Assembly: GCF_016741775.1 (NCBI RefSeq)
Contig: NZ_JAERRK010000012.1
Coordinates: 62,001-126,000 of the forward strand
Reading direction: 5' to 3'
Source: Streptomyces actinomycinicus
GTDB lineage: Bacteria; Actinomycetota; Actinomycetes; Streptomycetales; Streptomycetaceae
DNA length: 64,000 bases
Below are positions 8,779-51,340 of the stretch, piece after piece. Both the position numbers and the translations under genes were made by a program. Each line of letters starts with the position of its first letter. The stretch's first letter is position 1. A model generated the notes under the pieces. That model saw only the letters and a program-made list of their open reading frames with translations, ran no database searches and was not told where the DNA came from.

Positions 8779-8784
8779 AGCCTA
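8779..8784 (-). promoter_or_regulatory. -10 hexamer that includes the preceding gene's stop codon
   Basis: Read on the minus strand, the upstream gene ends ...CAT TAG and continues GCT. TAGGCT is the common actinobacterial -10 form, 8 nt before the GTG of the LON gene. Confidence 0.45.
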
Positions 8785-9834
8785 ATGGTCACCGGCGGCG
8801 ACGTGTCCGCCGTGCTCACGCAGCGGGACCGGCGGCTGGGGTATCAGCCCGGCCGGGACCGGCCGCGGGCCCGCCGCCAGCAGGTGCTCGCGCAGCCGCA
8901 GGAAGTGGCCGAGCGGGTCGTCCGAGAACCGCTCCCAGGGGAACGACGTGGCGTACGGGCCGATCAGGCGTAGCTGGGCGCGGGCGTCGTCCCGGCGGTC
9001 CAGCCGCAGCAGGACGTACAGCAGCTTGTTGCGGACCTCGGCGGGCCACGGGTCGGCCGCCGGGAACCGTCCGGACAGGGCGATGGCGCGGTCGGCCGCC
9101 GCGTCCAGGCGGGCGCGGGGCACCTCGGGACCGCAGCCGTCGGTCAGATAGCCGAAGGCCGCCCGGGCGGGCAGGGCCTGCACGAGCGAGTCGGCCGGGG
9201 CGTCCTGGGCCGCGGTGTCGGCGAAGTCGAAGCACGCGTGGTGTGAGCCGTGCCAGGAGGCGGCGAGGTAGCGCAGGGCGGCGACGTGGCAGCCGTAGTG
9301 GTGCGGGGCGCGCCGGACGGCCGCCTCCCACAGCTCCTCGAAGTAGCGGTGCCCGGCCCGGGAGCCGCGCGCGTGGTCCAGCGCGATGCGCCAGGGGACG
9401 GGGTCGCGGTCGTCGGCGCGGGCGGCGGCGGTGATGTGCGGGCTGACCTCGCGCAGCAGCTCGGCGCGGGCCGGTGAGGGCCAGGCGTGGTCCACCGCCA
9501 GCTGGGCCCCGACGAGCAGCGCGTCGGGGTCGTCGGGGGCGGCCGCGCGCCAGGACTGGAACCACTCCGGGCGCGAGCGGGCGAAGGCGGCCAGGCGCCG
9601 TGCGTACCGGTCCCGGTTCTCCCACTCGGCCGCGGTGCGGGTGGTGGCCAGCAGGCCGGCCGCGGCGGTGTGCTCGCCCCGGCCGGCCGCGACCAGCGCG
9701 GGCGAGAGCCGGTCGTCGGGCGCGTCGAGCACGGCCTCGTCCCCGGCCGGCGGTCGGCCGGCCGGGGACGCGGAGCGTTTGGTCATCCGGGTGGGGCGGA
9801 TGAACGAGGGCAGCAGAGCCATGGTGTCGACCAT
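8782..9834 (-). CDS. Helical-repeat (TPR-like) hypothetical protein
   Basis: 350 aa from ATG 9834 (MVDTMALLPSF); an ATG 12 nt later (9822) is equally possible. The frame opens 24 codons further upstream without a better start. Predicted all-helical with repeated blocks of 35-50 residues rich in Ala, Arg and Trp (WENRDRYARRLAAF, WFQSWRAAAPDDPDALL, PWRIALDHARG, YFEELWEAAVRR). This fits the 'DUF4034-like/TPR' scaffolds of streptomycetes. No catalytic motif. It ends 11 bp before the LON gene. Confidence 0.75.
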   Translation of the reverse strand: MVDTMALLPSFIRPTRMTKRSASPAGRPPAGDEAVLDAPDDRLSPALVAAGRGEHTAAAGLLATTRTAAEWENRDRYARRLAAFARSRPEWFQSWRAAAPDDPDALLVGAQLAVDHAWPSPARAELLREVSPHITAAARADDRDPVPWRIALDHARGSRAGHRYFEELWEAAVRRAPHHYGCHVAALRYLAASWHGSHHACFDFADTAAQDAPADSLVQALPARAAFGYLTDGCGPEVPRARLDAAADRAIALSGRFPAADPWPAEVRNKLLYVLLRLDRRDDARAQLRLIGPYATSFPWERFSDDPLGHFLRLREHLLAAGPRPVPAGLIPQPPVPLREHGGHVAAGDH

Positions 9835-9954
9835 TGAAAGTCCGCAGCTCGGGAGCGCGCCAGAGGGCCCGCGGAAGTCGCGGAAGGTTGTACGGCACAA
9901 GGTCAAGGACGGGTAAAAGGTGATGTCCGGCCTTTTGGTGACTCAGCGTGGCGA

Positions 9955-10069
9955 ACCAGCTCCGGCGCCGCGGCCGGATCAGCTCCGGCGCCGCAGGCGG
10001 ATCAGCTGCGGCGCGGCAGGCGGATCAGCTATGGGGCAGCAGCCGGATCAGCTCCGGCGCAGCAGGCGG
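9955..10069. repeat. Five 23-bp tandem repeats spanning the stop codon of the gene at 10048
   Basis: Units at 9955, 9978, 10001, 10024 and 10047, each exactly 23 bp, consensus ATCAGCTCCGGCGCCGCAGG + CGG. On the minus strand each copy carries the sequence that encodes the last residues (RLLRRS) and TGA of the membrane protein. Only the rightmost unit is the real gene end; the other four lie in its 3' flank. Confidence 0.92.
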
Positions 10070-11625
10070 GTCGCGCCCGCCGCGACCGTGGTGGCCAGGA
10101 CCCAGCCGAGCAGGATCATCGCGGCCGCCAGCCACTGCCACGCGCCGCGCAGCTGCCACTGGCCGGCCTGGCCGAGATCGATCACCGGCAGCAGCAGGTC
10201 CAGCGTGAACAGCGCCGGGCTCCAGGCCTGATGCCCGCCGGGGTTCACCGGTGGATGGTCCGCGTGGGCGAACGCCAGGGTGCCGGCCGCCCACAGCACC
10301 GCCATCCACACCGCGGCCCGGCCCGGCCGGTAGCCGTAGGCCACGGTCCAGTCCTGCACGAACCCCCAGACCTTGCCGGCCGGCGGCAGCGTCTCGCGCC
10401 GCCGGCGCTGCTTGGCGAGCAGCACCTCGCGCGCGTCCTCGTCCTCGCCGGCGGCGCGCAGCACCGCGGCCAGCCGCTCGTACGGCTCCGGGGCGTACTC
10501 GGCGGTGGCCGCCGCCACCCAGTCCAGGCGCCGGGCCAGCGGGAACGGTCCCTGCGGCACCAGGTTCTCGTAGGCGAAGCCGCCCATGTGCAGGTTGCCC
10601 GGGTCCGGCCAGCTGTTCGCCCGGTCCACCAGGGTCACGATCCGGGCTCCGGACAGCACCACCTTGCCGCGCTGCGGCTTGTCCCCGAGGAAGCGCAGCT
10701 CGGGCGTCTGCACCCGGCGCAGCGACAGCTCCTGGCCGTCGCCGAGGACGAACCGCGCCCGCTCCAGGTCGACGGCGTCCCCGAACCGCCCGTCGTCCAG
10801 CCGGATCCCGCCCCGGCACTCGAACCGCTGGATGCGTGTCCCGCGGGCGGGTGTCGTGCCGCTCAGCAGCGGGCTGCCGACACCGGCCGGGGTCAGGTAC
10901 AGGGTGCGTTCGACGGTCAGCTGGGGGGCGTTCAGGGCGAGCCGGGCGTACGGATTGGCGAGCTTGGCGCCGCGCAGGCTCAGCGAGACGCCGACCTTGG
11001 CGCCGCGCAGACTCAGCTCGCCGTGCGACTCCAGCATCTCCGCCTGCAGGTCCTGCCCGACGGTCATGCCGTCCCCCGCGATCGACCGGCCGCCGCGGTC
11101 CCGGCCCACGATCGCCTGGTTGAGCAGCAGATCGGTGCCGATGTGCGCGTCGGTCAGCCGGATGCCGCCCGGGAAGCGGCAGCGGGGCAGGTGCAGATCG
11201 CCCTCGGTGTGCACCCGGGCCGCCTCCAGGCGCGGGGCCGAGCAGTCCACCAGGCGCACGGTCGTGAAGCCGGCCTCCGGCAGCCGGATCTCCTCGTCGA
11301 AACGGCAGCCGCGCAGCTCCACGTACGGGGTGACCTGGCCGCCCGCCAGGTCCAGCGCGCCGGTGACGCGCACGCCGACGAGCTTCAGCGCGGACACCCG
11401 TCCCGCCAGCGCCGGCGGGCCGTCCAGCAGCAGCCAGCAGACCATGCGTGCCCGCACGGTCCGCTCGGGACCCCAGGGATGACCGCCGTGCGGATCGTCC
11501 ACGACGGCGTCGCCGCTGCTCAGGTCGTACAGGCTGCCGTTGCGGAAGGCCTGCCACATGCCCGCCTCGGCCGCGGTCAGGTCGTCCGGCAGGTCCCCGG
11601 CGCGGATGCCGGCCCCCTCGGTCAC
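10048..11625 (-). CDS. Pentapeptide-like beta-helix protein with C-terminal membrane region
   Basis: 525 aa. Residues about 60-370 are a run of short strand-like repeats ([53 protein letters not shown]), like a pentapeptide or right-handed beta-helix. After a helical, basic region (about 390-430) come two hydrophobic segments (about 435-455 and 490-515). Streptomyces annotations often call this family 'membrane-associated oxidoreductase', but I see no nucleotide-binding or redox motif. ATG 11625 follows AGGAG. The last codons sit in a 23-bp tandem repeat. Divergent from hisD. Confidence 0.78.
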
Positions 11626-49989: not shown

Positions 49990-51147
49990 ATGGCCGAGGC
50001 CTACATCGTCGAAGCGGTCCGCACGCCCGTCGGGCGGCGCGGGGGAGGGCTCGCCGGGGTCCACCCGGCCGACCTGGGCGCGCACGTCCTCACGGCGCTG
50101 GTCGAGCGCTCCGGGATCGACCCGGCCGCCGTCGAGGACGTGGTCTTCGGCTGCCTGGACACGGTGGGGCCGCAGGCCGGGGACATCGCCCGCACCTGCT
50201 GGCTGGCCGCCGGCCTTCCCGAGGAGGTGCCGGGCGTGACCGTCGACCGGCAGTGCGGCTCCTCGCAGCAGGCCGTCCACTTCGCCGCGCAGGCCGTGCT
50301 CTCCGGCACCCAGGACCTGGTGGTCGCCGGCGGGGTGCAGAACATGTCCCAGGTCCCCATCGCCTTCGCCTCCCGGCAGGCGGCCGTCCCGCTCGGCCTC
50401 ACCGACGGTCCCTTCCTCGGCAGCACCGGCTGGCGCGCCCGCTACGGCGACCAGCCCGTCAACCAGTTCGCCGGCGCCGAGATGATCGCCGCCCAGTGGG
50501 GCATCGGCCGTGAGGAACAGGAGGAGTTCGCCCTGCGCTCGCACCGGCGCGCGATCTGGGCGATCGACACCGGCCGCTTCGACCGCGAGACCGTCCCCCA
50601 CGGTGAGGTCACTGTGGACGAGGGCCCGCGCCGGGACACCTCCGCGGAGAAGATGGCCGCACTGCGGCCCGTCCTCGACGGCGGCACCATCACCGCCGCC
50701 TGCTCCTCCCAGGTCTCCGACGGGGCAGCGGCGCTGCTGCTCGCCTCCGAGCGGGCCGTCCGGCAGCACGGGCTGCGCCCCCGCGCCCGCGTCCACCACC
50801 TCTCGGCGCGCGGCGAGGACCCTATCCGCATGCTCTCCGCGCCCATCCCGGCCACCGCGCACGCCCTGAAGAAGACCGGCCTGACCCTCGACGACATCGA
50901 CCTCGTCGAGATCAACGAGGCGTTCGCCCCGGTCGTCCTCGCCTGGCTGAAGGAGACCGGCGCCGACCCCGGCAAGGTCAACGTCAACGGCGGAGCGATC
51001 GCCCTCGGCCACCCCCTCGGCGCGACCGGCGCCCGCCTGATGACGACCCTCCTGCACGAACTGGAGCGCACCGGCGGCCGGTACGGCCTCCAGACCATGT
51101 GCGAAGGCGGCGGCCAGGCCAACGTGACCGTCATCGAACGCCTCTGA
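49990..51147 (+). CDS. Thiolase, FadA6-like
   Basis: 385 aa, like FadA6 (about 386). Nucleophilic Cys in DRQCGSSQQ near 91, His in GHPLGATGA near 340-350, and second Cys in MCEGGGQAN near 375. EAVRTPVGRRGG start. It cleaves a 3-keto-acyl-CoA in the last part of ring C/D breakdown (inferred). GAGGGAG lies before ATG 49990. The 3' end lies in a 28-bp repeat. Confidence 0.87.
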   Translation: MAEAYIVEAVRTPVGRRGGGLAGVHPADLGAHVLTALVERSGIDPAAVEDVVFGCLDTVGPQAGDIARTCWLAAGLPEEVPGVTVDRQCGSSQQAVHFAAQAVLSGTQDLVVAGGVQNMSQVPIAFASRQAAVPLGLTDGPFLGSTGWRARYGDQPVNQFAGAEMIAAQWGIGREEQEEFALRSHRRAIWAIDTGRFDRETVPHGEVTVDEGPRRDTSAEKMAALRPVLDGGTITAACSSQVSDGAAALLLASERAVRQHGLRPRARVHHLSARGEDPIRMLSAPIPATAHALKKTGLTLDDIDLVEINEAFAPVVLAWLKETGADPGKVNVNGGAIALGHPLGATGARLMTTLLHELERTGGRYGLQTMCEGGGQANVTVIERL

Positions 51148-51235
51148 CGGAGACCCGTTTCACCGAACGCCGGTGACGGTGACGCGTTCGTCGAACGCCG
51201 GTGACGGGGAGGCGTTCGTCGAACGCCGGTGACCG
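51135..51235. repeat. 28-bp tandem repeats that begin in the thiolase stop region
   Basis: Units at 51164-51191 and 51192-51219 (CGAACGCCGGTGACGG...GCGTTCGT), and a partial one from 51220. The thiolase end itself (51135-51163, ATC GAA CGC CTC TGA CGG) is a diverged copy. The gap 51148-51340 is convergent and otherwise empty. Confidence 0.8.
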
Positions 51236-51340
51236 GTGCGAAGGGTGGCCGGACGGCGGGGACCGCGCCGCGGCCGTCCGCCGCCCCGACCGGGGATCGG
51301 AAACCGGCGCCGCTGACGACGCCGCCGACCACGGTGACGG

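Follow-up and report, generated by a model that had tools for sequence, protein, structure and literature searches.

A 23-bp tandem array that runs across the stop codon of a Streptomyces gene is very probably an ordinary, lineage-specific, neutral minisatellite founded on the gene end. The array is recent, and comparison with orthologs supports a reading of its units as copies of the gene end, made in the direction from gene to spacer. It lies in the window, the whole 64,000-nt stretch of DNA analysed here, where it falls between two co-directional genes:

10048..11625, minus strand: host gene, 525 aa, probable membrane protein (ORF and codon-usage gene call)
9956..10070, minus strand: tandem array of five 23-bp units (TRF, shuffles and unit alignment)
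10048..10070, minus strand: unit 0, the last seven codons and TGA of the host gene, with the true stop at 10050-10048
10025..10047, minus strand: unit 1, 5/23 mismatches to unit 0; TGA retained, out of frame
10002..10024, minus strand: unit 2, 3/23 mismatches to unit 0; TGA retained, out of frame
9979..10001, minus strand: unit 3, 2/23 mismatches to unit 0; TGA retained, the first in-frame stop after read-through
9956..9978, minus strand: unit 4, 5/23 mismatches to unit 0; stop altered to TGG
9830..9935 (approximate), minus strand: conserved promoter-proximal half of the spacer, untouched by the array (alignment of 10 orthologs)
8782..9834, minus strand: next co-directional gene, 350 aa (start from the codon-usage call)

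Results

The five units stand head to tail at 9956-10070 on the minus strand, the reading direction of the host gene. TRF calls the array at 9957-10069 with a period of 23, 4.9 copies, 85% matches, no indels and a score of 149, which none of 1000 dinucleotide shuffles of 9901-10300 reached (best 67). This confirms that the array described in an earlier note on this DNA is real and non-random. The same note placed the TGA of the gene end in all five units; units 0 to 3 do carry it, and unit 4 reads TGG (4/5). Outside the array, mismatches to unit 0 rise to 18/23 just past unit 4 and 11/23 just before unit 0. When the array was searched against the host genome, the other 41 matches were short and weak (best E 5.6e-4) and none covered it, the best partial match being 37 bp at 85% identity; a dispersed repeat family was rejected on these grounds.

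The host protein has hydrophobic segments close to its C terminus, as judged by eye, and no Pfam or NCBIfam family matched the gene at 10048-11625. Likewise, no NCBIfam or Pfam family was found for the next gene at 8782-9834, with Pfam run on the longer ORF 8782-9906. These two conserved genes adjoin what we take to be a histidinol dehydrogenase-like gene. A 561-bp query that includes the end of the host gene matched 191 of 199 genus genomes, while the array alone matched only one of 392, the host's own; the earlier note had named an occurrence away from this gene in relatives as a refutation, and none was seen in these genomes. The host species is represented by one genome.

Gene ends were read at 111 loci, from which 10 duplicates were removed before counting to leave 101 distinct loci including the window's own, and later in 140 distinct orthologs excluding it. 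The gene end is conserved in all 140 of these other Streptomyces orthologs, and the 23-bp array occurs in none. The coding end in unit 0 is likewise conserved among relatives, for example as CTGCTGCGCCGGAGCTGA. Orthologs that lack the array share the conserved gene end, so the copying ran from gene to spacer, and in the host lineage. This bears out the proposal that the array grew from the stop of the gene, with unit 0 as the conserved end and units 1 to 4 as copies made from it.

The spacer that received these copies measures 216 bp against a median of 152 bp in 95 relatives, within their range of 100-284 bp. In an alignment of 10 orthologs, its conserved blocks start downstream of the array, which lies wholly within the variable half. 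On the minus strand of the conserved half (~9830-9935), a promoter-like region contains blocks around TTTTACC, CTTGACC, GTACAAC and TTTCAATGGTC that are strongly conserved across the ten aligned orthologs.

At the same place in other species, an array edge falls between -30 and +70 of the stop in 15/140 orthologs, with units that differ from the 23-bp one. The comparable figure for other gene ends at the same loci with at least 100 bp of room is 38/447 (Fisher p 0.40, in tests that assume independent positions and species, which related species and positions are not), and a locus-specific hotspot was rejected on this comparison. Stop-spanning arrays in other species have units of 31 bp (L018), 19 bp (L094), 30 bp (L028) and 37 bp (L085). 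Under the stricter rule, arrays span the stop in 4/140 orthologs; under a looser rule (any TRF row with a score of at least 60), a stop-spanning row is found in 6/100 other distinct orthologs (L014, L018, L028, L085, L094 and L118). Other arrays begin just past the ortholog stop, as in L011, L054, L133 and more. Separately, L077 carries a 20-bp repeat of 6.2 copies with 99% match, 46-169 bases past the ortholog stop; it is nearly perfect and looks much younger than the array in the window.

Both features expected of a bacterial minisatellite are found here. Head-to-tail units of about 10-100 bp are present beyond chance, and lineage-specific rapid turnover is seen in relatives that lack the array or carry other units at the same place. 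We propose that the 23-bp segment comprising the last seven codons and TGA was tandemly duplicated, most likely by replication slippage or unequal exchange, of which slippage is our inferred route. The duplicate would then have multiplied to five units, with later divergence by point mutation, and the array would have persisted because it was free of cost. Its presumed neutrality has two sources: the upstream copy holds the true stop, which leaves the protein unchanged at any unit length, and the array occupies the first half of the spacer, which changes quickly, and does not reach the conserved promoter-proximal half.

Several observations run against this minisatellite reading, among them the retention of TGA in 3/4 downstream copies and the occurrence of a stop in every frame within 69 nt, an unusual feature found in 8/100 other orthologs. 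These same all-frame stops favour the idea in the earlier note that the array buffers the gene end, with extra TGAs that catch read-through or slipped ribosomes and a non-triplet period that covers three frames. Repeats of TAACTGA at gene ends in Beggiatoaceae, which give stops in all frames, offer a precedent (PMC4679880). The note was right that 23 is not a multiple of three, which puts the TGAs of units 1 and 2 out of the host-gene frame; its claim of a frame shift at each copy does not hold, in that one frame, after read-through of the first TGA, runs past units 1 and 2 and is closed 69 nt downstream by the TGA of unit 3. A next in-frame stop at this distance is ordinary, being as near or nearer in 41/100 other orthologs. 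Copied stops were also compared across the host genome, where 27 of the 31 stop-spanning arrays offer one or more downstream copies for comparison. Positions of the copied stop are identical in 127/162 cases against 778/874 for the rest of the unit, and 33/54 copies still hold a stop; copied stop codons therefore decay faster than the remaining unit. If they served as spare stops, the triplet should be the best-preserved part, and over these 27 arrays it is preserved worse. The 23-bp array itself goes slightly the other way, its stop positions being better conserved than the remaining ones (0.92 against 0.87), which is a point against the minisatellite reading, though on tiny numbers that four copies leave undecided. 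The array is also missing from relatives, and we reject a buffering function as very unlikely. Having the array come first and the gene end recruited from it later has a probability close to nil. Some other arrays have mostly non-stop triplets where the stop would be copied, so a stop may arise inside an array, but at this locus the idea is refuted by the conserved gene end of orthologs without the array.

A role at the RNA level is likewise hard to reconcile with the data. A transcription terminator or mRNA 3′-end stabiliser made of repeated GC-rich hairpins would be well placed, as the array lies 0-92 nt past the stop, where Streptomyces 3′ ends fall (as in S. clavuligerus, PMC8269248), and array edges are concentrated in that zone genome-wide. 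The array is, however, missing from relatives and folds no better than expected (z -0.29, with 71/200 shuffles folding as well). Stop-spanning arrays likewise average a z of -0.29 (n=20), nearby arrays -0.95 (n=89), and a random quarter of the array-free 3′ flanks -1.00 (n=89); genome-wide, arrays fold like array-free 3′ flanks (p 0.87). A scan for terminator-like sites (a stable hairpin plus T run) found none within the array on either strand; Streptomyces terminators frequently have no U tract, and a simple scan could miss such sites. With no credible Rfam match in addition, a terminator or structured RNA was rejected, and the termination element suggested in the earlier note is improbable. 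The antisense element that it also suggested, or regulation of either the host gene or its downstream neighbour by the array, is highly improbable. The sole point for it is the position between two co-directional genes, with an analogy in M. tuberculosis, where expression correlates with the tandem repeats that lie upstream of fpg1 (PMC2734929). Against it, no promoter-like site was detected on either strand of 9700-10300, Rfam gave nothing credible, and the array leaves intact the conserved promoter-proximal half of the spacer, from which it is separate.

The earlier note had also called for a search for other stop-spanning arrays in Streptomyces, and these proved plentiful. In 1.264 Mb of the host genome with 1056 called genes, 31 arrays span a stop and 5 span a start; two other species, sampled at 400 kb each, gave 5 to 1 and 9 to 1. 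The asymmetry was not seen in 40 relatives' loci of 20 kb, where stop-spanning and start-spanning arrays number 3 to 2 among 728 genes, a smaller and array-poor set; this too counts against the minisatellite reading. Consensus units of the stop-spanning arrays in the host genome differ from one another. Overlapping TRF rows were merged by retaining the best-scoring row, and genes with a gene-call score below 30 were excluded from edge and gene-end counts. Gene calls came from a home-made codon-usage caller trained on the host genome, with fuzzy starts and some short genes missed.

Gene-proximal array edges show no peak at the stop itself. The last 30 coding bases hold 13-18 of them per 10 kb and the 70 bases that follow the stop 18-23; deeper inside genes the figure falls to 0.5-3 per 10 kb. 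This profile is what tolerance predicts, since a segment that includes the stop can be duplicated silently when the upstream copy preserves the end of the protein. The periods agree: 136/146 arrays inside genes have a period divisible by three, compared with 8/31 stop-spanning arrays, so a non-triplet length is normal for unconstrained arrays. Among arrays classed as intergenic, 71/153 have a triplet period, above one third, a sign of the short genes that the caller missed.

Of 485 gene ends with 100 bp or more of room in the host genome (C1 1-800000 and C19 1-400000), 121 have an array near the stop. This compares with 38/447 in relatives, whose loci all surround the array locus, so that the chromosome regions are unmatched; 400-kb samples elsewhere in the other two species gave 20/152 and 12/115. 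The host genome may be unusually rich in minisatellites, although the regions compared are not matched.

Discussion

Taken by itself, the array is of little importance. Selection on the protein cannot see a duplication that takes in the stop codon, however, and noncoding arrays can consequently begin inside a gene. The only part that deserves follow-up is the excess of arrays after stops, which goes beyond simple tolerance of all noncoding DNA and, as a zone excess, is a further point against a plain minisatellite account. Within 70-110 bp past a stop, array edges reach 3-4 times the density seen farther out, even where spacers are long and convergent. Convergent spacers of 250 bp or more have 30-43 per 10 kb in this zone against about 7-12 beyond; co-directional spacers are similar, and relatives show the same trend of denser arrays shortly after stops. 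The excess may reflect a transcription-linked source of duplications, or short genes missed farther out, as missed genes lower the apparent array density far from stops.

In S. clavuligerus, 3′ UTRs are most often 70-79 nt long (PMC8269248). The array-rich zone matches this typical length, and the process might therefore be tied to transcription termination. Such a link might take the form of a mutational hotspot at 3′ ends; alternatively, the arrays might tune 3′-end processing. That minisatellites arise preferentially in Streptomyces 3′ UTRs, with the stop-spanning array as one edge case, is a tentative suggestion that we think rather less probable than its opposite. Arrays crowding Streptomyces 3′ UTRs would be important if they mark a transcription-linked source of duplications, and 3′ UTR arrays across Streptomyces would supply ready strain-typing markers.

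The 23-bp array resembles several known systems in part. With bacterial minisatellites, VNTRs and the tandem repeats of Borg elements it shares head-to-tail units of tens of bases, lineage specificity, independent origins and a unit length that is divisible by three inside ORFs and not in intergenic DNA; Borg units are perfect and A-rich (PMC9879509), whereas those of the 23-bp array are diverged and GC-rich. The rnc-fpg1 repeat, a mycobacterial MIRU-VNTR, is similarly an actinobacterial intergenic tandem repeat of one clade that is absent from relatives, but it begins 40 bp past a stop, whereas the 23-bp array spans one. MIRUs are repeat structures of 40-100 bp scattered over 41 locations of one chromosome; the 23-bp unit, in contrast, occurs at one locus only, without such dispersal (MIRU and rnc-fpg1 details from PMC2734929). 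The TAACTGA direct repeats of Beggiatoaceae resemble the array in giving stops in all frames and overlap the stop of the upstream gene in 13 cases. They differ in that a single 7-bp unit recurs throughout the genome, usually pointing toward start codons (PMC4679880), whereas each stop-spanning locus of the host Streptomyces genome has its own unit rather than a shared one. A literature search returned no paper on stop-spanning arrays in Streptomyces, which is weak evidence of absence given that subscription journals were mostly uncovered.

A second stop-spanning array in the window, at 51134-51238, covers the end of the plus-strand gene 49990-51147 with 3.7 copies of a 28-bp unit.
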